A stretch of DNA of 64,000 nucleotides from Bacteroidaceae bacterium (GTDB taxonomy: Bacteria; Bacteroidota; Bacteroidia; Bacteroidales; Bacteroidaceae), in the NCBI GenBank assembly GCA_017448965.1, contig JAFSKK010000044.1, positions 1 to 64,000 on the forward strand. Direction: 5' to 3'. Under the pieces are notes generated by a model. That model had not been told where the DNA came from. It saw nothing but the letters and a program-made list of their open reading frames with translations, and ran no database searches. Shown here in pieces: positions 37,991-56,391 of the stretch. Both the position numbers and the translations under genes were made by a program. Each line of letters opens with the position of its first letter. Position 1 is the first letter of the stretch.

Positions 37991-38785
37991 ATGGAAGAGG
38001 AAGAAATATATAACGGAAAAGAAACACATAAGGAACATGAGGAATATACTGGAAGAAGTGCCTCGCAACTCTTCCGCGAATTGCTGCGTCTGCTCCTTGT
38101 GCTGATATGGCGGTTCTTGGTGTGGCTTTTCAAGCGCATCTTGAAAGGCATCCTGTGGTGCATGCAGGCCATTGAGGACGGGTTGATACGTCTGAACGAT
38201 TGGTGGCACGACAACAACACCCAAGAAAAGGTGGCCAAGATGAAGGCGTGGCTGAAGAAAGCCGCCAAAACCTTCGGACACTGGTGTGTGGTGGCAGCAA
38301 AGGCAACGGGAAAGGGAATCGTCATTGCCGCCAAAGCGACAGGACACGGATTGCTGGTGGCTGCGAAGGCGACAGGACGGGGAATCGTCATTGCCGTAAA
38401 GGCCACCATCCAGGGCATCATCCACCTGCGCCCCACCATCAAGAAGATTGGACAACTGATTGTCAAGGGAGCCAAAAACACGGCCGCCGGAATGAAACGT
38501 GCCCGACGAGGCATGAAACTTTCCAGCATCAGACGGCGCAGGCGCCACGAGGCATTTGTCCGCAACGGAGGCATGAAAGGCTGGATGAACCGAACCTCCC
38601 ACAACGTCAGAAGCAACATCGAGCGCTTCATGGAAGAAGACCAGGAGGAAGCCACGCCGGATGCTGTGACTGAAGACGACATCATGGCCGAAGCGCTGGA
38701 AAAAGGTGCCAACGATGGCAAGAAGCCGATGAAGATTGGCAAGACCTTCATCACCCATGCTAAAAACTTCATGGATGTGGAATAA
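37991..38785 (+). CDS. Uncharacterised membrane-associated protein with 11-residue repeats
   Basis: A 264-residue protein with no family I recognise. A polar, acidic start is followed by a strongly hydrophobic, Arg/Trp-containing stretch at about 28-60 (LLRLLLVLIWRFLVWLF) that could be one membrane segment. Residues 99-142 are four exact 11-residue units of the form (I/L)(V/L)(I/V)A(A/V)KAT(G/I)xG, encoded at 38285-38416. They are followed by a basic region (MKRARRGMKLSSIRRRRRH, about 168-186) and an acidic tail. The composition is lysine- and arginine-rich in the middle and suggests membrane or nucleic-acid contact. It lies upstream of the mechanosensitive channel gene. Confidence 0.7.
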   Translation: MEEEEIYNGKETHKEHEEYTGRSASQLFRELLRLLLVLIWRFLVWLFKRILKGILWCMQAIEDGLIRLNDWWHDNNTQEKVAKMKAWLKKAAKTFGHWCVVAAKATGKGIVIAAKATGHGLLVAAKATGRGIVIAVKATIQGIIHLRPTIKKIGQLIVKGAKNTAAGMKRARRGMKLSSIRRRRRHEAFVRNGGMKGWMNRTSHNVRSNIERFMEEDQEEATPDAVTEDDIMAEALEKGANDGKKPMKIGKTFITHAKNFMDVE

Positions 38786-46975: not shown

Positions 46976-47021
46976 GTGTCCCTACACCCATAAGTAGAAA
47001 CAGCAAAAAAGAACCGAAAAA

Positions 47022-47053
47022 TTTGGCGGAGTGTGGAAATAAGTATATCTTTG
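47022..47053 (+). promoter_or_regulatory. Complete promoter of the histidine phosphatase gene
   Basis: TTTG at 47022-47025 and TATCTTTG at 47046-47053 with a 20-nt spacer form a textbook Bacteroidetes promoter. The leader to the start at 47157 is about 97 nt and contains an 8-bp hairpin (47093-47100 pairing with 47108-47115), which could influence translation. Confidence 0.8.
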
Positions 47054-47156
47054 CAAACGTAAACTATAAATATTCGTGGTTTAGGCACGTAACCATTTCC
47101 AAGACAAGGAAATGGCGGGTTTTCAAGCCATAAACAGAAAATTAAAACTTTATCAA

Positions 47157-48563
47157 ATGAGAAAACAAGGAATGTGGATGCTGGCGCTGTTGTTCATCTT
47201 TGGCACAGGCGCTCAGGCACAGATGAAACGCTCTGAAGATTTTCGGGCGAAATATGCACTGAAGGAGGTGGTGGTGATGAGTCGCCACAACATCCGCTCG
47301 CCGCTGTCATCAGGCGGAGCGGCCTATAAGCGTGTGACGCCCCACCAATGGTTTGCATGGTCGTCGCCCAGCAGCCAGTTGTCGTTGCGTGGCGGTATGC
47401 TGGAGACTGCTATGGGGCAGTTCTTCCGTCAATGGGTGGTCAGCGAGGGATTGCTGCCTGACAACTACCGTCCCCAAGAGGAGGAGGTTTTGTTCTATGC
47501 CAATTCGCGGCAACGCACGTTTGCCACTGCAAAGTATTTCTCTGCCGGGTTCCTGCCTTTCGCCAACGTGGAGATTATGCATAAACTCGAGGAGGACAAG
47601 ATGGATCCCGTGTTCACGCCGCAGTTCACAAAGATGAACGACACATACCGCCAGCAGGTGCTCAACGAGATGGCGGCACTGAATGGTGGTCCACAGAAAT
47701 GGATGGAGAGCGTTCAGCCTACGCTGACCCTGATGGAAGAGGTGCTCGACATGTCGGCATCTCCTGCCGCGCTACAGGGAGACACGCTGCACTTCCGTTT
47801 CGACGACACACAATTCAAGATTGAAAAAGGCGACGAGCCCCGCATGACGGGTGGCTACACGTTGGCCAACAGCGTGGCTGATGCACTGGTGCTACAGTGC
47901 TACGAGAGCGAAAGCATGACGGCCTTCGGCCACGAACTGACGACTGAACAATGGCGCAACATCTGCAGCGTGAAGGAGGTCTATGACGGTATTCTTTTCA
48001 CCACCCATGCCGCTGCCGTCAATCTGGCCCACCCTTTGGTCAGCCGTATTCGCGAAGAGTTGCAACGCACCGACCGCAAGTTCATGTTCCTCTGCGGTCA
48101 CGACAGTAACCTTGCCAGCATCAGCGCCGCCCTGCGTTTTGTGCTCCCCGAGACTGAGAATGCACTGGAACGGCATACACCCATCGGTTCCAAGATTGTC
48201 TTTGAGAAGTGGAACGACGGGAAGGAGGATTACGTGGCTGTCAATCTGGTCTATCAATCCCTGAGCCAATTACAGAATCGTACACTGCTCTCGCCCGATG
48301 TACCACCGATGGTGTTGCCCATCACTGTTGAAGACTTGACCGCCAATGACGATGGTCTTTATCGCTGGGCTGACCTTGATGCCCGTATGTCTGAGGCAAT
48401 GGCCGAATACGATGCCATCGAGGATGCACCCACCGGTGTTTCTTCTGCTGCCAGCCCCACTTCCAACGGCAAGGGACACGCCTACACGCTCAGCGGTGTG
48501 TCTGCCACAGACTCCACGCATGGCATCGTGATTATCGACCATCAGAAAGTCCTCAGGAAATAG
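47157..48563 (+). CDS. Secreted histidine-type acid phosphatase
   Basis: A 468-residue periplasmic or secreted phosphatase of histidine-phosphatase clade 2 (glucose-1-phosphatase/phytase-like). The start at 47157 gives a clean signal peptide (MLALLFIFGTGAQAQ); the frame is open 15 codons further upstream, inside the leader hairpin. The nucleophile motif is SRHNIRSP, a variant of RHGxRxP in which Asn replaces Gly. The proton-donor motif is CGHDSN. An arginine in NSRQRT further supports the fold. Probable role: release of phosphate from sugar phosphates or phytate outside the cytoplasm. thyA starts 38 nt downstream. Confidence 0.87.
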   Translation: MRKQGMWMLALLFIFGTGAQAQMKRSEDFRAKYALKEVVVMSRHNIRSPLSSGGAAYKRVTPHQWFAWSSPSSQLSLRGGMLETAMGQFFRQWVVSEGLLPDNYRPQEEEVLFYANSRQRTFATAKYFSAGFLPFANVEIMHKLEEDKMDPVFTPQFTKMNDTYRQQVLNEMAALNGGPQKWMESVQPTLTLMEEVLDMSASPAALQGDTLHFRFDDTQFKIEKGDEPRMTGGYTLANSVADALVLQCYESESMTAFGHELTTEQWRNICSVKEVYDGILFTTHAAAVNLAHPLVSRIREELQRTDRKFMFLCGHDSNLASISAALRFVLPETENALERHTPIGSKIVFEKWNDGKEDYVAVNLVYQSLSQLQNRTLLSPDVPPMVLPITVEDLTANDDGLYRWADLDARMSEAMAEYDAIEDAPTGVSSAASPTSNGKGHAYTLSGVSATDSTHGIVIIDHQKVLRK

Positions 48564-48601
48564 ACCGCGGTACACTAAATGGAGATAAAACCTATTGAAC
48601 A

Positions 48602-49396
48602 ATGAAACAATATCTTAACTTGCTCGACCGCATCCTGAAGGAGGGTGTGCAGAAAGGCGACCGTACAGGAACTGGCACCATCTCGGTGTTTGGCAACCAG
48701 ATGCGGTTCAACTTGGAGGAAGGCTTTCCTCTGCTGACAACCAAGAAGTTACACTTGAAGTCCATCATCTATGAGTTGCTGTGGTTCTTGCAGGGCAACA
48801 CGAACGCGAAGTGGCTGCAGGAGCGCGGTGTGCGCATCTGGAATGAATGGGCGGACGAAGATGGCAACCTGGGGCATATCTATGGTTACCAGTGGCGAAG
48901 TTGGCCCGACTACAACGGAGGACACATCGACCAAATCAGCGAGGTGATTGACCAAATCAAGAACAATCCGAACTCACGAAGGCTAATTGTTTCGGCTTGG
49001 AACGTGGCTGATATCAAGAACATGAATCTCCCACCCTGCCACATCCTGTTCCAGTTCTATGTGGCTGACGGGAAACTGAGTTGCCAACTCTATCAGCGGA
49101 GTGCCGACACCTTCTTAGGTGTGCCGTTCAACATCGCCTCGTATGCGTTGCTGACCATGATGGTGGCGCAGGTGTGTGACTTGCAACCAGGTGATTTTGT
49201 GTACACTACAGGCGACACGCACCTCTATCTCGACCATATCGAACAGGCTAAGCTGCAGCTGACACGTGAGCCTCGACATCTGCCCAAGATGAAGATTAAC
49301 CCGAATGTGAAGAGCATCTTCGACTTCCAGTACGAAGATTTTGAACTGACGGATTACGACCCGCATCCTCACATCAAGGCAACTGTAAGCGTATAA
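48602..49396 (+). CDS. thyA: Thymidylate synthase
   Basis: Methylates dUMP to dTMP with methylenetetrahydrofolate and makes dihydrofolate, which the neighbouring folA product reduces. The protein has 264 residues, as in E. coli. Catalytic Cys146 lies in [11 protein letters not shown], the dUMP-phosphate arginines in RTGTGT and NSRRLIV, and the folate site in [10 protein letters not shown]. All key residues are present. Confidence 0.98.
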
Positions 49397-49436
49397 CAAA
49401 GACATATTTGCTCCTTTGCCTCCCATTGAGGCTTGG

Positions 49437-49517
49437 AAAAACAATAATTACCCAAAATTGGTTCCAATAATAATTATTGGATAAAATTATTGTCAATTAT
49501 TGGTAATTATTGTTTTT
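49437..49517 (+). repeat. AT-rich nested palindrome between thyA and folA
   Basis: Outer arms 49437-49452 and 49502-49517 are exact 16-bp reverse complements. Inside lies a second perfect palindrome (49464-49480, CCAATAAT-A-ATTATTGG). The box AATTATTG or its complement CAATAATT occurs about six times in 81 bp. The outer stem ends in five T, so it may terminate thyA, but the nested structure is larger than needed for that. Confidence 0.75.
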
Positions 49518-49572
49518 CGAGACACCAACGGTGTTGAGAGCAAAACACATCAACTAACTTGTTCATTTACTA

Positions 49573-50067
49573 ATGATTTCAATTATTGTCGCTATAGCTG
49601 AGAACCGTGCCATTGGCTCGGAGAACAAACTGATTTATTGGTTGCCCAACGACCTCAAACGCTTCAAGGCATTGACCACGGGCAACACCATCATCATGGG
49701 CAGACGCACGTTCGAGAGTCTTCCCAAAGGTGCGTTGCCCAACCGACGGAACATCGTGCTGTCGCGAAAGGGTAAACCCGAAGACTTTCCCGGAGCCGAC
49801 CTCTACCCCACTCTCGACGAAGCCCTTGCCTCCTGCGAAGGGGATGTTTATATCATTGGCGGTGCATCCGTGTACAAAGAGGCACTCCCCCTTGCCGACC
49901 GCCTGTGCCTCACCTACATTTACGACACTCCCGAAAAGGCCGACACGTTCTTCCCTGAAATCAACAAGGATGAATGGACAGAGACATTCCGCGAAGAACA
50001 TGAGGTGGATGAGAAACATGCGTATCGCTATGCATTCGTGAATCTGGAGAGGAAGAAGAAAGGGTGA
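49573..50067 (+). CDS. folA: Dihydrofolate reductase
   Basis: Reduces dihydrofolate to tetrahydrofolate with NADPH. The protein has 164 residues, the normal length. The start ISIIVAIAENRAIG, the substrate-site WLPNDLKRFKALT (Asp27 equivalent present), the NADPH-binding IIMGRRTFESLP and VYIIGGASVY are all intact. The pairing with thyA is common and links the two folate reactions. The last 47 codons before the final KKKG are duplicated at 50712-50855, downstream of a toxin-antitoxin pair. Confidence 0.96.
   Translation: MISIIVAIAENRAIGSENKLIYWLPNDLKRFKALTTGNTIIMGRRTFESLPKGALPNRRNIVLSRKGKPEDFPGADLYPTLDEALASCEGDVYIIGGASVYKEALPLADRLCLTYIYDTPEKADTFFPEINKDEWTETFREEHEVDEKHAYRYAFVNLERKKKG
49921..50064 (+). 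repeat. Direct repeat: 3' part of folA (intact copy)
   Basis: This segment, the end of the functional folA, is repeated at 50712-50855. The encoded residues are identical up to NLERK; roughly twenty base differences occur, nearly all at third positions or in Leu/Arg codons. The second copy starts 791 bp after the first. Confidence 0.9.
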
Positions 50068-50093
50068 GAAACATCACAAAAGTATCGCAAATA

Positions 50094-50125
50094 TTTGGAT
50101 GAGTTGGGATTTTGATTTACCTTTG
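50094..50125 (+). promoter_or_regulatory. Promoter of the toxin-antitoxin pair
   Basis: TTTG at 50094-50097 and TACCTTTG at 50118-50125, 20 nt apart, match the consensus fully. A decayed version (TTTG 50908-50911, TACCTATG 50931-50938) stands at the same place after the second folA tail, in both cases preceded by the same GCAAATATTTG context. Confidence 0.8.
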
Positions 50126-50151
50126 CAAGTGAATACTAATTTGACAGCAAT

Positions 50152-50340
50152 ATGACCACCATTGTAGAAAGAACACCCAGAAGGATAACCGTTAGCATGA
50201 GTACGCGACGGTGGAACAGGATGTTGCAGCTTGAAGAGACATATAAACTGGCCCGCATCATCCGACGTAGCATGAAACAGGTGGAGACAGAGCCAAGCAT
50301 GACTCCAGATGAAGCCATAGCAGCATTACGCGCACTATGA
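50152..50340 (+). CDS. Putative antitoxin of a RelE-type module
   Basis: A 62-residue, basic protein (MTTIVERTPRRITVSMSTRR start) with an acidic-hydrophobic end (SMTPDEAIAALRAL). I do not recognise a named family. The position directly before a RelE-like toxin, the ATGA overlap (50337-50340) that couples translation, and the own promoter make the antitoxin role likely. The N-terminal half could be a short ribbon-helix-helix DNA-binding part and the C-terminal helix the toxin-binding part; both are inference. Confidence 0.7.
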   Translation: MTTIVERTPRRITVSMSTRRWNRMLQLEETYKLARIIRRSMKQVETEPSMTPDEAIAALRAL

Positions 50341-50663
50341 GAGTCAGAATCTCCGAAGACTTTCGTGTTGCCTATAAAAAGCTGAAAAAGCGTCACAAGT
50401 CACTTGAGGCAGATTTCGAGCGTCTTCTTTCATCCCTACTTCAAGAGCCCATTCAAGGTGTGGAGTTGGAAGGCGGTGCCCGGAAAGTTCGCCTAGCAGT
50501 ATCTTCTAAAGGTCGAGGCAAAAGCGGTGGTGCACGAGTCATTATTCGTGTACGTCTCATTGCCGATGAGCTACAACTCCTTTATATCTACGACAAGGCA
50601 GATTTCGAGAACGTCAGCGATGCATACCTTCGTGACATCATGAAGCGTATGGAACAATCTTGA
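50337..50663 (+). CDS. RelE/HigB-like ribonuclease toxin
   Basis: A 108-residue protein with the arrangement of RelE/ParE-superfamily toxins: an N-terminal helix pair (SEDFRVAYKKLKKRH), then the strand block RKVRLAVSSKGRGKSGGARV, and a final LLYIYDKADFENVSD. The block SSKGxGKSGGAR is typical of a widespread RelE/HigB-like group that cuts mRNA at the ribosome. Basic residues in that block are the likely RNA-contacting and catalytic ones. It overlaps the antitoxin by 4 nt. The duplicated folA end begins 48 nt after its stop. Confidence 0.82.
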   Translation: MRVRISEDFRVAYKKLKKRHKSLEADFERLLSSLLQEPIQGVELEGGARKVRLAVSSKGRGKSGGARVIIRVRLIADELQLLYIYDKADFENVSDAYLRDIMKRMEQS

Positions 50664-50711
50664 ACACTAAATTTAGGTACCATCAAAAATATACATATAT
50701 AAAAAGGAGCA

Positions 50712-50855
50712 TACGACACTCCCGAAAAAGCAGACACGTTCTTCCCAGAAATCAACAAAGACGAATGGACAGAGACGTTCAGAGAGGAACACGAAGTGGA
50801 TGAGAAGCATGCGTACAGATATGCATTTGTGAATTTGGAAAGGAAAAACAAATGA
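50712..50855 (+). pseudogene. Duplicated, detached 3' end of folA
   Basis: The 47 codons and stop from 50712 encode YDTPEKADTFFPEINKDE and onwards, identical to the end of folA until the last residues (ERKNK here, ERKKKG in folA). It has no start codon in frame and lacks the first two thirds of the enzyme, so it cannot make dihydrofolate reductase. The differences to the intact copy are almost all synonymous, which means both tails came from functional genes. This is the expected scar of a DNA segment that entered at folA and brought its own folA end. Confidence 0.9.
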
Positions 50856-51124
50856 AGAACTAAAAAAACAGAATCACCATGAGTCCATAATAAAAAAACA
50901 GCAAATATTTGCATGTATAAAAAAGACTCATACCTATGTGGTGTTAATTCCTGGTAGTCCCTGACCTCGTCAAACTATCAGGTGTTATTTTTTATTTATC
51001 CCTTCCTCCCATCTTTTCATTCGTTATTATTTTGTGGAGGAATAGCTAAGAGTTTTTTGATGGTATATTACGATGTGAGAGAGCATCTGACCCATGATAT
51101 CATCAAGAGGGTGAAGGACGAACG

Positions 51125-51140
51125 AACTAAAAATATAGTT
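51125..51140 (+). promoter_or_regulatory. Operator dyad 1 for the BlaI-like repressor
   Basis: The 16-bp dyad AACTA-N6-TAGTT lies just upstream of the -33 region of the blaI promoter. An identical pair of half-sites with the same spacing is at 51196-51211. Autoregulation by the encoded BlaI-like repressor is inferred. Confidence 0.65.
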
Positions 51141-51155
51141 AAATAGTGTTATTTC

Positions 51156-51187
51156 CTTGTTCATGTCATCTAAAAGGCATTACTTTG
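51156..51187 (+). promoter_or_regulatory. Probable promoter of the BlaI/M56 operon
   Basis: CTTG at 51156-51159 and TTACTTTG at 51180-51187, 20 nt apart, resemble the Bacteroidetes promoter with one deviation in the -7 box. It lies between the two operator dyads, as expected for a repressible promoter. Confidence 0.55.
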
Positions 51188-51195
51188 CAGCATTG

Positions 51196-51211
51196 AACTA
51201 AATAAATAGTT
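51196..51211 (+). promoter_or_regulatory. Operator dyad 2 for the BlaI-like repressor
   Basis: AACTA-N6-TAGTT, the same as at 51125-51140, covers the expected start of transcription and ends 4 nt before the blaI start codon. Binding here would block transcription directly. The two dyads start 71 bp apart. Confidence 0.65.
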
Positions 51212-51215
51212 AAAA

Positions 51216-51572
51216 ATGGAGAAACTAACAAGGAAAGAAGAAGAGGTGATGGAGATGATCTGGAAGATTGGTCCATGCGCTCCTAAGGATGTGGTTGCGG
51301 AGTATGAAGAGCCCAAACCACACATTAACACGATTGCCACGATGTTTCAGTCGTTGGAAAGAAAAGGTTACCTTGTTCATGAGGCGAAAGGACGTGGTTA
51401 CATCTATGCAGCCGCCATTGCTCAAAAGGACTACGGACGGAGTAAGTTCTCCAGTTTCGTGAACAGATACTTCGACAATTCTTACATGAATGTGGTGTCG
51501 GCATTGGTACAGGAAGAGAAAATCAGCAAGAGTGAACTCCTGGATTTCTTGAAGAAACTGGAAGAAAAATGA
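51216..51572 (+). CDS. BlaI/MecI-family transcriptional repressor
   Basis: A 118-residue winged-helix repressor. The N-terminal LTRKEEEVMEMIWKIGPCAPKDVV and the recognition-helix region HINTIATMFQSLERKGYLVH match BlaI/MecI, as does the C-terminal dimerisation helix pair (SALVQEEKISKSELLDFLKKL). In the classical system the repressor is cleaved when the M56-type sensor detects a signal, originally a beta-lactam. Its stop overlaps the sensor start (51569-51572). No beta-lactamase gene is nearby, so the signal and targets are different or distant. Confidence 0.93.
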   Translation: MEKLTRKEEEVMEMIWKIGPCAPKDVVAEYEEPKPHINTIATMFQSLERKGYLVHEAKGRGYIYAAAIAQKDYGRSKFSSFVNRYFDNSYMNVVSALVQEEKISKSELLDFLKKLEEK

Positions 51573-53905
51573 TGGCATCCCTATTCATTTATATTCTTAA
51601 ATGGGCTATCAGCCTCACGTTGCTGTATTCGCTCTATGGCCTGTTCCTACGGAAAGAGACGTTTCATCGTTTCAACCGCATGGTGCTGTTGGGCATCTTG
51701 CTGACCAGCATGGTGCTACCCTTCTGTACTATCCACACGAAACAGGAAACTATCGTATCGAAGGGGATGAGCGATATCGAGACAAACATTGCTGACGAAA
51801 TCGTGATCCAATATCAACCAGACGAAGATACAGAGGGAACAGAGCCAACCATTCCTATCTCTTTCATCAAAAAGACGCAGTCGGAAAGGGAGGTGCCTGC
51901 TCGCACCCTGCATCTGAGCCTTGTTCGTTGGCTGATCTTGCTCTACCTCTTGGGGGTGGTCTATTTCTGGGCACAATATCTGCTGTCCGTTGGCGCCATC
52001 TATCGGGTGGTCAGACAAAGCCAACGAATCGACAAAGACGGGCTTCCACAGGGCGTTCGTCTGAAGAGCCATCCTTCCATCCGTTCCCCTTTCTGTTGGT
52101 TTGGCATCATCATCATTCGAGAGGACGACCTTGAAGGCAAGTCCAACATAACGGATGCAATCATTGCCCACGAACTGGCACATGTGAAACTTCACCACTC
52201 ATGGGATAACCTGTTGGCTGATTTCACCACAAATATGCTTTGGTGTTTGCCGTTCACGTGGATGCTCAGGCGAGACCTGCGTGATGTGCATGAGTATCAA
52301 GCCGACCAAGCCGTCATGCAGGCAGGATTCGATGCCCACACTTACCAGTTGCTGCTGATAGACAGAGCAACCGAACCCACCCCCTACGAGATAGCCAACA
52401 ATTTTGAACAAAACCCCATTAAAAGACGACTCATTATGATGTTCCGGAACAAATCTGGCAGATACGCTTGGATGAAAGCGCTGTACTTGATTCCTCTTGG
52501 CGCCATCGCTTTGGTGGCATTCGCCAAGCCCGACATGATGGAAACGATTGAGACCAAGGTGTCTGACGAGATGGATTCGTTTTCTTTCACCTATACCACC
52601 TCAAAAGAGAATGCCAGCGCCCAATCCTTTGATGAAAACGACTGGACACAAGACCCACGTGGCATCTATCGATTGACCAAAATCACAGGTCGTAACGGCA
52701 TTGAGATGGATGCACCCTTCGACCAGTACAAGATTTGTGAAGAGGACGCCACTTTCTCCTTTTTTGTCAATGGCAGCAATCCCAAAGATGTTCAATTCCG
52801 CCTGAACATCAACGACGCCAACGTCTTCGACTACACAGGGAGAGTTCCGCAAGAAGAGGATGGGCACGGGGCACAGATATACGATAGTAACGGCAAGGGG
52901 TTCAAACTCAGATGGTGGAGCGTATATAAAGACCACGCCCTATTCCCCGATCATGGATGGGTGGTGGAGCAGTACGAACGCGACAAATTCTCCAAATCAG
53001 CCCAGGAAATTCTGAGTATGCTGAGAGACACGAAGGACTTCGATAGCGATGACCCCTATTCTGGCATTTGGTGGATGAGCGAAAAGAACGAAGCTGAGTT
53101 GCAGGCATGGAAGGACGGAAAAGGAGCTTTTGATTCACCGCACATCATGAATGGAATGGTGGTGCGAGGTCATCGAGTGCTGAGGTTCAGCTTTGTGAAT
53201 GACATCAATATTGCGAGACGTGGCTATACTGGCTCTGTGCAAGACTGTTCCCACGAGGGGAAAGAAAAAATCCGCATCGGCAGTCGCATCTACGAACCCG
53301 AATGGATAGGCGACAACTACTTTTATTATCAAACAGAAAAAGGAAAATTCCAATTTTGGACACGCCAAACCTTAGGCAAGGAATTCCTCTATGAGAATTT
53401 CCTCTCCATACTTCATTATGCTCAACACCAGCCACATCCCCTTGCCACCAGCAAGTTTGACACGAAGCAAACCCATGCGGACATCCCTGTGTCCAGCAGC
53501 GACAGCATCTATTTAGCCCCCAATGTCAGCATCGCCCAATTTGAGGGAGGGAACAATGTCCTCATGCACTGGCTGCAAACGCATCTGCACTACCCTGACC
53601 CCATCTACAGGAAATATGGGTTTGAAGGTCGTTTGATGGTCACTTTCGTGGTGGAGAAAGATGGAAGCCTGCAACATTTCTCTGTGATTCGCAACGACAT
53701 CAACACCAAAGAAACTGCCGCCTCTCTCCATCTGACAGAGGAGGAATACGAAAGCTTTATCTTCAAGAGAAAAGCAGCCTTCGAGAATGTCGTCATCAAC
53801 CTTCTCCAATCTATGCCTCGCTGGCAACCAGCCATCCATGAAACGAATGGCAAGAAAGAATATGTACGTATGAAATATACCCTCCCCTTCACTTTCAAAC
53901 TTTAA
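51569..53905 (+). CDS. BlaR1-like M56 metallopeptidase with TonB C-terminal domain
   Basis: A 778-residue membrane sensor-protease. The N-terminal third has four membrane segments (about 5-25, 37-53, 120-142 and 305-325) around the M56 zinc-peptidase core, with HELAH at 201-205 (His201, Glu202, His205) and a later Glu in EYQADQAV. The middle 330-640 is an extracytoplasmic beta-rich region of unknown type, in place of the penicillin-binding domain of BlaR1. The last about 110 residues are a TonB C-terminal fold (YPDPIYRKYGFEGRLMVTFV, then PRWQPAI). Such M56-TonB fusions are frequent in Bacteroidetes. It overlaps blaI by four bases. Confidence 0.9.
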   Translation: MMASLFIYILKWAISLTLLYSLYGLFLRKETFHRFNRMVLLGILLTSMVLPFCTIHTKQETIVSKGMSDIETNIADEIVIQYQPDEDTEGTEPTIPISFIKKTQSEREVPARTLHLSLVRWLILLYLLGVVYFWAQYLLSVGAIYRVVRQSQRIDKDGLPQGVRLKSHPSIRSPFCWFGIIIIREDDLEGKSNITDAIIAHELAHVKLHHSWDNLLADFTTNMLWCLPFTWMLRRDLRDVHEYQADQAVMQAGFDAHTYQLLLIDRATEPTPYEIANNFEQNPIKRRLIMMFRNKSGRYAWMKALYLIPLGAIALVAFAKPDMMETIETKVSDEMDSFSFTYTTSKENASAQSFDENDWTQDPRGIYRLTKITGRNGIEMDAPFDQYKICEEDATFSFFVNGSNPKDVQFRLNINDANVFDYTGRVPQEEDGHGAQIYDSNGKGFKLRWWSVYKDHALFPDHGWVVEQYERDKFSKSAQEILSMLRDTKDFDSDDPYSGIWWMSEKNEAELQAWKDGKGAFDSPHIMNGMVVRGHRVLRFSFVNDINIARRGYTGSVQDCSHEGKEKIRIGSRIYEPEWIGDNYFYYQTEKGKFQFWTRQTLGKEFLYENFLSILHYAQHQPHPLATSKFDTKQTHADIPVSSSDSIYLAPNVSIAQFEGGNNVLMHWLQTHLHYPDPIYRKYGFEGRLMVTFVVEKDGSLQHFSVIRNDINTKETAASLHLTEEEYESFIFKRKAAFENVVINLLQSMPRWQPAIHETNGKKEYVRMKYTLPFTFKL

Positions 53906-53925
53906 ACTATCAACTGTCAACTATG
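53891..53925 (+). repeat. Heptanucleotide array joining two genes
   Basis: Five 7-nt units (ACTTTCA, AACTTTA, AACTATC, AACTGTC, AACTATG) run from the last codons of the M56 gene into the start codon of the next gene: the ATG at 53923 is the end of the last unit. The units belong to the same AACTNTN family as at 836-863 and 56122-56149. Confidence 0.75.
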
Positions 53926-54738
53926 AATAAAATCCTCTTAATCATCCTCACATGGATAACACTTATTTCGACTGCCTCTGCCACAGGGCAAGAAGGAGAA
54001 CACATCGTTTGGAAAGGGCAAGAGTACCAGATGCTGACCTGTCCCCTTTACGACTGCCACGAGTTTGATAGCTTGGGCAGAAAATTGGAAAAGGAATGGT
54101 CAATGACATCTCTTTGGCGTGGCTATCAGGGGCATTGGTGCATCGAAAATGATATGCTCTATCTCGACTATATCGTGCCTAAAAGTGGGGAAAATCTCTA
54201 CGCCAAGGACATTCCAGAACTCCGCAAATACTGCAAGAATGGACGTGTGGCTGCTACTTGGTTCAGCGACACCCTGCGAGTCGTTTCAGGCAGCACAGTC
54301 TTCTATGAACACATGGGCTTCAACCGCTACTATGAGCATGAGGACTTCATTGCTGTGAAACAAGGCAAGGTTGTGTCTGTCAAACGAGTAGAAAACAAGT
54401 TGATTATCAAGGGGAAGGAGAACGACATGGATGCACAGAGGAAATTCAGTCAGTTCCTCGCTGATCTCGGCAAACAACTGCACAAACGCTATCCAGAAGA
54501 GAGCGGTCGCATCCTTGCCAACGTAAGATATTGCAACTTCGGTCTTATGATGATGCCTTCCGACGTGGAAGTGACCTTCCTCATCGGTCAAGATATCCAA
54601 CACAACAACAAAATGATGGAAAGGGAAATTAAAGAGAAACTCGCTAATTATATTCTCGCCAACAAAATTCTCCCTCTTTACTACCTCAACGGGAAGATAA
54701 AATCGCCCAAATGGCTACTCCCCATCCGATTGGAATAA
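53923..54738 (+). CDS. Uncharacterised exported protein of the BlaI/M56 operon
   Basis: A 271-residue protein with a signal peptide (ILLIILTWITLISTASA, cut near residue 21). I recognise no family. The first half has two cysteines (LTCPLYDCHEF) and several Trp/Tyr. The last 120 residues, with ANVRYCNFGLMMMPSDVEVT and a closing PKWLLPIRLE, faintly recall the end of TonB-like domains in the preceding M56 protein. It starts 17 nt after the M56 gene through a heptad array and is probably the third gene of that operon, so it may be the sensed or regulated partner. Confidence 0.7.
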   Translation: MNKILLIILTWITLISTASATGQEGEHIVWKGQEYQMLTCPLYDCHEFDSLGRKLEKEWSMTSLWRGYQGHWCIENDMLYLDYIVPKSGENLYAKDIPELRKYCKNGRVAATWFSDTLRVVSGSTVFYEHMGFNRYYEHEDFIAVKQGKVVSVKRVENKLIIKGKENDMDAQRKFSQFLADLGKQLHKRYPEESGRILANVRYCNFGLMMMPSDVEVTFLIGQDIQHNNKMMEREIKEKLANYILANKILPLYYLNGKIKSPKWLLPIRLE

Positions 54739-54908
54739 AAAAACTAACAAATAACCAGAATATGAAGATAAAAATAAACAATGATGAACAAGAAAACAAT
54801 AACGGAAAACCATCAGTAAACTAAAACAAAATAAAGAAGACTTTCATGAAATGACTGATGATTAGTGAAATATTCGTTCTTCATTCTTTCCGTAATCAAC
54901 AAGTTTCG

Positions 54909-54935: not shown

Positions 54936-55010
54936 ATGAGCAAGGAAGATTGTCTGCATCACTGTTTTTTCTGTCTGCAAACAAAAGGACACAATGACAT
55001 TACCCATTGA
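54936..55010 (+). CDS. Possible 24-codon leader peptide overlapping the rsmF start
   Basis: The first ATG of the predicted rsmF transcript opens a 24-residue frame (MSKEDCLHHCFFCLQTKGHN and four more residues) that ends 17 nt inside rsmF in another reading frame. The cysteine- and histidine-rich CLHHCFFC is unusual for chance sequence. A translated leader could couple to or limit rsmF translation. There is no further evidence that it is made. Confidence 0.25.
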   Translation: MSKEDCLHHCFFCLQTKGHNDITH

Positions 55011-56391
55011 CTTTCAAAATATGATGATGAGTAACCTCGGCAAGGAGGAATATGAAAGACTTGCCGAGGCTTTATCTTTGCCTGCACCCACAAGCATACG
55101 CATCAATAAAAAGAAGACCCTCTCCCCTGCCCTCCCCCATAATGGGGAGGGAGAAGTCCCTTGGTGCCCTGATGGCTTCTACCTTTCAGAGCGTCCTTCG
55201 TTCACGTTTGATCCTCTGTTTCATGCGGGCTGCTATTATGTGCAGGAGGCATCATCGATGTTTTTGTCGCATATACTGCAAGGATATGTGAAGGAGCCAG
55301 TGGTGGCATTGGACTTGTGTGCTGCACCAGGAGGGAAATCCACGCTGGCATTGTCAGAACTGCCTGAAGGATCGTTGCTGATAGCCAATGAGGTGGTGAG
55401 ACAACGGGCAAACATCTTGGCAGAAAACATCATTAAATGGGGCAATCCCAACTGCATCGTCACGAACAACTATGCAGAGGACTTTCAGGCGTTCGGCAAC
55501 ACGTTCGACCTCATCATCTGCGATGCACCCTGTTCGGGAGAAGGAATGTTCCGTAAAGACCCGAACAGCATCGGGGAATGGAGCCTTGCGAACGTGGATG
55601 TATGTTGGAGGCGACAACGAGACATCGTGAGAGACATCTGGCACACGCTGAAGGAGGGAGGACTGTTCATCTACAGCACCTGCACCTACAATCCCTTGGA
55701 AGACGAGGAGAACGTGGAATGGATTGCCAAGACATTGGGGGCTGAAGTGCTGTCGTGCCGTCCCAACCCTGAATGGGAATTGACAGAGAAGAACACGCAT
55801 TTCTATCCGCATCGGACGAAAGGCGAAGGCTTCTTCATCAGCGTGATGAGAAAGACATCGGAAGCGGAAAGCAGGAAAAAAGGAAAGGAAAGCAAGGCGG
55901 GAAAGTCTGCGAACAAAGTGCCTGCAGAACTGAAGGGTTGGTTGTTGGGAAGCCAAGATTTCACCTTCTTAGAGGGAAAAGATAGTTTCTATGCCTTCCC
56001 TACAACTCATCTCGATACTCTTAGACAAGCCCAAAGTACACTGAGAGTGATTCATGCAGGCATCGAACTTGCAACCAGCCCACGCACTGGGCGAATTTCT
56101 CCAGCAAAGTCCTCTTCTCTCAACTCTAAACCCTCAACTCTAAACTCGCTTCGCCCCTGCCACAGCCTCGCCTTGAGCAACAATCTGAACCAAGAGGCTT
56201 TCCCGATGGTAGAAGTAGATGAGCACCAAGCCATTGCCTATCTGCGGACAGAAGCCCTGCAACTGCCAGCCGACACTCCACGCGGCTATGTGCTCATCAC
56301 CTATCAAGGACATCCATTAGGCTTTGCCAAGAACATCGGCAACCGCGCCAACAACCTCTACCCTACGGAGTGGAGAATCAGGAAGAATTGA
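54994..56391 (+). CDS. rsmF: RsmF/RsmB-type rRNA (cytosine-C5) methyltransferase
   Basis: A 465-residue SAM-dependent enzyme that methylates a cytosine of 16S rRNA. The SAM site is LDLCAAPGGKSTLAL. The two catalytic cysteines are Cys180 in DAPCSGEGMFRKD and Cys230 in STCTYNPLEDEENVEW. The C-terminal domain (YVLITYQGHPLGFAKNIGNR) is the RNA-binding end typical of the RsmF group. Two foreign-looking stretches interrupt it. TLSPALPHNGEGE near residues 43-55 is encoded by a palindromic element (55116-55153). SSLNSKPSTLNSL near 376-388 is encoded by a heptad array (56122-56149). Both lie outside conserved motifs and keep the frame. Confidence 0.9.
   Translation: MTLPIDFQNMMMSNLGKEEYERLAEALSLPAPTSIRINKKKTLSPALPHNGEGEVPWCPDGFYLSERPSFTFDPLFHAGCYYVQEASSMFLSHILQGYVKEPVVALDLCAAPGGKSTLALSELPEGSLLIANEVVRQRANILAENIIKWGNPNCIVTNNYAEDFQAFGNTFDLIICDAPCSGEGMFRKDPNSIGEWSLANVDVCWRRQRDIVRDIWHTLKEGGLFIYSTCTYNPLEDEENVEWIAKTLGAEVLSCRPNPEWELTEKNTHFYPHRTKGEGFFISVMRKTSEAESRKKGKESKAGKSANKVPAELKGWLLGSQDFTFLEGKDSFYAFPTTHLDTLRQAQSTLRVIHAGIELATSPRTGRISPAKSSSLNSKPSTLNSLRPCHSLALSNNLNQEAFPMVEVDEHQAIAYLRTEALQLPADTPRGYVLITYQGHPLGFAKNIGNRANNLYPTEWRIRKN
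55116..55153 (+). repeat. 38-bp palindromic element inside rsmF
   Basis: It matches the copy at 61050-61087 at 35 of 38 positions. The core is the palindrome CCCTCCCCCATAATGGGGAGGG-type (about 22 bp, half-sites CCCTCCCC and GGGGAGGG). It is read in frame as TLSPALPHNGEGE in the N-terminal part of the methyltransferase. Confidence 0.9.
56122..56149 (+). repeat. Heptanucleotide array inside rsmF
   Basis: Four 7-nt units (AACTCTA, AACCCTC, AACTCTA, AACTCGC) lie in the linker before the C-terminal domain. Since seven is not a multiple of three, a change by one or two units would shift the frame and cut off that domain. Confidence 0.75.

Follow-up and report, generated by a model that had tools for sequence, protein, structure and literature searches.

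The 64,000-nucleotide stretch of Bacteroidaceae DNA analysed here, hereafter the window, comes from a genome of 3.03 Mb that is assembled in 74 contigs and 85.6% complete. On its forward strand, an intact folA gene encoding dihydrofolate reductase (49573..50067; PF00186, 6.8e-53) is followed by a promoter, a toxin-antitoxin (TA) pair and a second copy of the folA end. A direct-repeat search placed the final 47 codons of folA at 49921-50061 (T1) and again at 50712-50852 (T2), as two copies of 141 nt each that are 86% identical and spaced 791 bp apart. T1 (49921..50067) is continuous with the gene body and, judging from its tree placement, is probably the incoming copy. T2 (50712..50855) has no start codon and an undamaged frame, and the repeat and codon comparison suggest that it is a displaced folA tail. 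The direct repeat stops before the stop codon, while the coordinate 50855 includes the stop of T2. In the whole window, the only direct repeats of at least 40 nt within 6 kb are T1/T2 and one tandem pair at 38261-38396, and the ORF listing contains no ORF of at least 40 aa with an ATG, GTG or TTG start in the frame of T2. The initial annotation of this DNA had described the last 47 codons of folA as occurring twice, 791 bp apart, around a RelB/RelE-type pair and its promoter, and this is what we found.

The folA gene is not broken by the insertion. FolA residues 117-161 are the same in T1 and T2; residue 162 is K in T1 and N in T2, residue 163 is K in both, and residue 164 is G in T1 where T2 has its stop. 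Over the full tails, 19 codons differ, 17 of them synonymously, and the changes are distributed over the three codon positions as 4/0/18, in agreement with the earlier description of about twenty base differences, nearly all synonymous, between tails alike in residues until the last few. The opening 17 nt are identical in both copies. In the 44 codons that could be compared with relatives, there are 16 synonymous and 0 non-synonymous codon differences (18 of 132 bases). If these 18 changes had accumulated by drift of a dead copy, the probability of all 18 being silent would be ~1e-11, or 3e-6 if only nine of them hit the dead copy; therefore, both tails ended working folA genes until recently. 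Silent codon differences number 12-22 in 704 of the 780 pairs formed by 40 relatives, so the distance between T1 and T2 is like that between two species of the genus. On the other hand, every one of the 780 pairs has at least one changed residue while T1 and T2 share all 44. Identical residues at a between-species silent distance are unusual and speak against the simple reading, as full residue identity would be odd for tails from two separate lineages. A FolA protein with exactly this tail was not present among the tails inspected, namely the first 59 of the best 120 of 122 proteins plus any that hold NKDEW or RKNK.

The DNA between the two tails contains a predicted TA promoter (50087..50125), composed of GCAAATATTTG and TACCTTTG, the latter of which we take to be a -7 box; homology to the copy in the relative G032 begins at 50090. 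The 62-aa RelB-like antitoxin (50152..50340) was assigned from a weak PF18506 match (E 0.13) and from its relatives, and its gene overlaps by 4 nt that of the predicted 108-aa RelE/HigB2-like toxin (50337..50663). The toxin just reaches the gathering cut-off of PF06296 (27.4 bits against 27), has HigB-2 chains as its nearest solved relatives in the PDB sequence search (E 1e-5), and carries the block SKGRGKSGG, which is invariant across the 20 toxin rows chosen for alignment. The antitoxin is in place upstream of the toxin in 13 of 13 chosen relatives at 52-95% identity; more distant toxins are often without an antitoxin match. From the toxin profile and the small, conserved, adjacent antitoxin, the pair is predicted to be a type II TA of the RelE superfamily. 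PADLOC matched neither protein. The remaining spacer (50664..50711) ends at an apparently non-homologous right junction (50711/50712) and has no match to the tails, the regions downstream of folA in relatives or the G032 TA copy.

The promoter context recurs after the second tail, as had been noted before. In the 64 kb, GCAAATATTTG is found only after T1 (50087) and after T2 (50901), against 0.08 occurrences expected; at 50901 it is palindromic and hence counted on both strands. After T1, TACCTTTG lies 20 nt from GCAAATATTTG, and after T2, TACCTATG lies at 19 nt. An Rfam search of 49380-51300 gave three miRNA matches, all below threshold and located at an inverted repeat, which we took as chance.

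Close homologues of the TA pair are at other sites in G032, G026, G030 and G010, split over two contigs in the last. The nearest relative of the toxin, at 94%, is in G032, and the homology between the window and G032 is limited to 50090-50661, so neither folA tail belongs to the TA unit. The four nearest TA relatives (L046-L049) have no flanking repeats within 1.5 kb, a real test in only two of the four since both flanks are present in only two and the sequences of L048 and L049 end 107 and 2 nt past the toxin match. The first two relatives with longer flanks (L123, L124) have short repeats ~2 kb downstream. By name, the nearest TA relatives come from bins of uncultured Bacteroidales, Bacteroidaceae and Prevotella, many of which are labelled as from the rumen or another ruminant gut. 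No close relative of the toxin was found in phages or viral contigs, the 18 plasmid records with TA relatives are each below 60% identity, and viral contigs contain two folA relatives at 36%.

The empty site is seen in the relatives. We found folA in 41 of 45 genomes of the genus, with a single tail in all 40 loci outside the window. The gene that ancestrally follows folA is rsmF (54994..56391 on the forward strand; PF01189/PF17125/PF13636), which adjoins it in relatives: at most 44 nt away or overlapping in 29 of the 40 loci, 247-2428 nt away in 7, and not within the 3.3-9.8 kb compared in 4. G010, the nearest relative by both thyA and rsmF, is among those with folA joined to rsmF. The comparison proposed with the initial annotation, a search for empty sites with one tail, thus found such sites. 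In the window, 4.93 kb filled by the TA pair, T2 and the BlaI-BlaR1-X unit separate the two genes.

Elsewhere, the cargo between folA and rsmF differs: an ORF6N protein in L013, RhuM and Fic in L211, a sigma factor with two ORFs in L209, and an AsnC-type regulator in L031. Together with L032, L037 and L038, these loci mark the junction as a recurrent insertion point. In L013 and L018, the folA frame is open into the next ORF. The initial annotation had also proposed that the module uses the folA end as its landing site, and this part did not hold. In the wider family, 382 of 399 genomes have a folA match (the window genome included), and none of the other 381 has a second tail beside a complete folA; the closest four TA relatives are located elsewhere. 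A standing role of folA as a landing site for TA pairs is therefore not supported by these sequences. Nine other family genomes have two folA matches, which are paralogues, a single gene matched piecewise, or fragments on separate contigs: G338 has pieces on two contigs, G273 two full genes ~2.9 kb apart, and G064 and G233 divergent second folA-like genes.

Downstream of T2, sequence searches identified a dispersed motif (AGAATCACCATGAGTCCAT) together with another promoter-like site that contains GCAAATATTTG (50866..50938, forward strand). The motif AGAATCNNNATGAGTCCAT is low-copy and dispersed, with 11 exact places in 7 of the 45 genus genomes and 0 for the reversed control (the window, L238, L240, L242-L245, L248-L250 and L252, with one mismatch in L237 and L253). 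It lies mostly between one gene's stop and a promoter, and within it ATGAGTCCATAA reads M-S-P-stop. G032:C16 and G036:C57 share the motif and its left side and have different right sides, and G032:C19 has the right side of G036:C57, as if modules had been exchanged at the motif. Behind the promoter-like site, the segment 50935-51000 contains a hairpin and a T-run (z -3.48) and is possibly a small RNA or a terminator. A short ORF with DVREHLTHDIIK at 50982-51146 resembles the start of a 1021-aa protein in L254 and looks like gene debris.

The second cargo block between folA and rsmF is the BlaI-BlaR1-X unit (51084..54747, forward strand), a 3.6 kb unit that is also present elsewhere in six genomes, G036, G032, G019, G030, G028 and G040 (L203, L206, L208, L210, L212 and L218). 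In 6/6 of these, homology to the window begins at 51084-51124 and stops at 54701-54747, and the neighbours differ between genomes except that those of G030 and G028 are the same and a few shorter stretches are common. None of its three proteins is a transposase. Upstream of folA, the thyA-folA spacer (49397-49572) contains MITE-like inverted repeats with 38-nt arms (79%), and is absent in relatives where both genes overlap. A histidine phosphatase gene (PF00328) lies at 46978-48601, in a stretch that blastn leaves unmatched, flanked by two blocks that the compared relatives conserve.

Which of the two tails is foreign was addressed by comparing placements on the relatives' tree by likelihood and the KH test, using 36 taxa for thyA and folA (taxa without thyA were left out). 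The flanking genes agree with each other: thyA places the window genome next to G010, with a lead of 6.5 lnL on the next edge and of 41 lnL on the stem of the clade G019/G021/G022/G032, and rsmF places it next to G010 (L015), 34 lnL over the next edge, in a test where G019 was the sole representative of that clade. T1 prefers the stem of the clade by 11.4 lnL over the place next to G010, a discordance that is marginal in the KH test (p=0.063) and is as expected if the end that restored folA came from a related lineage. T2 is also best on this stem, by 3.8 lnL (KH p=0.20), so both tails may be foreign. Of the 18 sites at which the tails differ, seven have T1 like the clade and T2 like G010 (48, 70, 72, 75, 84, 117 and 124, of which 70 and 72 fall in one codon) and two the reverse (81 and 129), in a hand count from the table with T1 required to share its state with at least three of the four clade members. 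The whole folA body is placed next to L020 (G015), with an advantage of 5.7 lnL over G010. Taken separately, its first half is placed next to G010 and its second half has no resolved place. These placements favour T1 as the import, short of proof, and T2 may be either the resident end or an earlier import. Placing the tails on the species tree, as had been suggested, thus set T1 apart from thyA and rsmF, marginally, and drew T2 weakly toward the same clade.

From these observations, we consider it slightly better than an even chance that a one-sided homologous import from a sister lineage brought in a segment composed of a folA end, a promoter and the TA pair, restoring folA and displacing its old end. 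The segment would have entered a relative of G010. Its left side would have been anchored by homology inside folA, giving the gene a complete, silently different end (T1), and its right side would have been joined without homology at 50711/50712, leaving the previous folA end (T2) and its downstream region behind the toxin. The direct repeat could let recombination excise the TA pair again, and an addictive pair would select against such excision, which would explain the survival of such repeats. We infer the direction of transfer, the manner of joining, and the addiction with its effect. According to the consulted portion of PMC2654758, two E. coli chromosomal TA systems do not seem able to stop large deletions from occurring, and this argues against taking preservation of the repeat by addiction for granted. 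A donor locus with folA, T1 and the TA pair in a row was not found among the genomes compared. The initial proposal of an import from a related strain that restored folA is therefore supported by the single tail in 40/40 loci and the discordant T1, and weakened by the KH value of T1 and by the folA body lying next to a third relative. Its further claim that the old tail was pushed downstream fits the seven sites against two at which T2 is like G010, and the KH test does not single out T2 as the resident (p=0.20).

The weak preference of T2 bears on a rather unlikely alternative, in which both tails are foreign and two imports from the same donor pool are stacked. T2 with the BlaI-BlaR1-X unit would have come first, parting folA from rsmF and replacing the native tail, and T1 with the TA pair would have come second, pushing T2 downstream. 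This fits the best placement of T2, the presence in G032 of the nearest relatives of both the toxin and BlaR1 (94% and 88%), and the interruption of folA-rsmF in seven further genomes (rsmF being outside the compared DNA in four); against it are the small margin for T2 and the six other BlaI loci compared, where the unit has no adjoining folA. The converse course, in which T1 and its promoter are resident and the DNA from T2 onward is an import joined behind an already resident TA pair, is improbable. It has a parallel in another TA locus, L177, where the gene-proximal tail is native, as is the promoter that drives the TA pair, and the far tail is foreign. However, T1 deviates more strongly than T2 from where thyA and rsmF are placed, and rsmF, which lies beyond the insert, is placed with G010 as thyA is.

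The import through homology in folA was further weighed against explanations in which the repeat has another origin. We give a very small chance to a remnant of a site-specific recombinase element that used the folA 3' end and brought a substitute for it. The geometry is that of phage 21 and e14 at icd, and the identical opening 17 nt of the tails could be read in its favour, but none of six ORFs of the insert (antitoxin, toxin, BlaI, BlaR1, X and a 54-aa ORF) matches an integrase family, visual inspection of the repeats displayed for other TA loci revealed no shared core, and the toxin has no close relative in viral contigs or phages. A recombinase might nevertheless have acted in trans. That the contig is a chimaera of two strains made in metagenome assembly is scarcely probable: the genome is in 74 contigs and incomplete, and most near relatives are by name metagenome bins, but only 17 identical bases are common to the tails at the junction, where the words usual in assembly are longer, and similar repeats occur in other genomes. 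The initial annotation had named an old tandem duplication of the folA end, with the second copy drifting, as the alternative to its own reading. It would account for two tails with identical residues in one genome, and has next to no chance, as the silent-only differences rule it out unless T2 is translated, and relatives have one tail.

We also examined whether other TA loci of this family are flanked by repeats. In a set of 80 loci from named genomes, from which L157 was left out, repeats were found at 7/73 TA loci and at 12/929 random blocks. The larger set contained 211 loci, 210 with a toxin match and 176 distinct toxins; of the 168 testable loci, L366 was left out with its toxin near the start of its stretch. 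Direct repeats of at least 30 nt (E at most 1e-5) linking the 700 nt before the locus to the 700 nt after it were found at 24 of the remaining 167, a count that includes the window locus, which prompted the test, and loci that are not phylogenetically independent. The same-locus controls gave 12/1160 random blocks and 6/205 ORFs, and isolated ORFs with intergenic flanks from a wider locus set gave 6/188 (Fisher p=0.0002 against the TA loci). A control of gene pairs, too small for its purpose, gave 1/20 (p=0.48). The suggestion that diverged repeats flank the TA loci of this family more often than they flank ordinary genes thus gains support. As far as the available portion of PMC2884548 goes, variable segments in other species have repeats, mostly <30 bp, at 10-18% without any toxin, so the excess may belong to variable DNA and not to TA pairs.

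The repeats are of several kinds. Gene ends are repeated in the window, L151 and L177. Regions ending in a promoter-like -7 box are repeated in L132, L297, L355 and L293, and in L134 of the 80-locus set only, while the one in L058 continues past an ATG; the repeat of L182 is a stretch from a stop codon onward. Larger gene copies are found in L127 and L309, tandem or low-complexity repeats in L063, L202 and L347, and the rest were left without a type. Some TA-flanking repeats are short (30-48 nt). In L151, the TA pair lies in antisense behind a gene that we take from its sequence to be phosphoglycerate-mutase-like, and a decayed, partly deleted copy of the end of this gene is on the far side. 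By its sequence, this is a further clean gene-tail case with the architecture of the window. In L177, both copies are tails of a gene whose C-terminal part is shared, and orthologues indicate that the near copy and promoter are native and the far copy is a stranger. L177 was dropped as a clean second case, its far tail being most like the tail of a paralogue, and it cautions against reading every repeat as an import. In a weaker and wider form, the landing-site idea is thus supported by the repeats at 24/167 loci, with L151 as another duplicated gene tail among them.

As a general statement, we put forward only tentatively, and hold as doubtful, that the type II TA pairs of this family move from species to species as cassettes that lack a transposase and bring along an adjacent host gene's end or promoter, whereby homology would anchor the import, the host gene would regain a working end, the old end would stay and addiction would protect the repeat. 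How chromosomal TA pairs without mobility genes enter new genomes has been poorly explained so far. If the repeats are alleles of the end of an adjacent gene, they would directly record a one-sided homologous import, and the excess of repeats around the TA family can be tested in strain collections. Whether addiction holds repeat-flanked DNA in place becomes testable as well.

Several known systems resemble parts of this locus. Phage 21 and e14 attach in icd and carry a substitute for the 3' end of the gene; as in the folA insert, the incoming DNA supplies a silently different gene end, but these elements need an integrase and a fixed core, neither of which was seen here. The minimal mobile elements of Neisseria place different cargo at one site flanked by conserved genes, carry no mobility genes and are not known to involve a tail duplication; the folA-rsmF junction is like them in its alternative cargo and differs in the duplicated gene tail of the window. 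The TA pair itself is like the type II systems RelBE and HigB2 in its toxin family (by Pfam and PDB sequence match) and overlapping antitoxin gene. Its antitoxin comes first, as is the gene order of relBE, although the nearest solved toxin is HigB-2.

In the titles and abstract openings of the open PMC set, nothing alike was found for TA pairs with flanking direct repeats, target duplication, minimal mobile elements, or Prevotella with folA. Within these limits, the closest systems in print are two, insertion with long target duplication, as known for restriction-modification genes, and homology-facilitated illegitimate recombination. In the excerpts of PMC3874152 and PMC1643837, the former (Nobusato 2000, Furuta 2010) concerns restriction-modification genes with repeats of ~100 bp and was first described in Helicobacter pylori; it is also cited in the consulted part of PMC3031569. 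As in those excerpts, the window has an addiction unit without a transposase, repeats of the order of 100 bp (here 141 nt, 86%) and one copy in a relative. Unlike there, the unit is a type II TA pair in Bacteroidales, and the copies are alleles 14% apart with silent differences only, not a fresh copy of the target: the 18 of 132 bases by which they differ amount to a between-species distance. Homology-facilitated illegitimate recombination was proposed, in the portion seen of PMC5361080, for T6SS effector-immunity modules of Vibrio cholerae, whose displaced immunity genes stay downstream, and one-sided homologous import with a non-homologous far end is discussed for small variable segments in that of PMC2884548. 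As far as these accounts go, the likeness would lie in an upstream homologous anchor, a non-homologous right end and a displaced piece of the recipient downstream. In the V. cholerae case, the effector module is anchored by its upstream region and an old effector is replaced, whereas in the window an unrelated housekeeping gene would provide the anchor with its end and would be restored.
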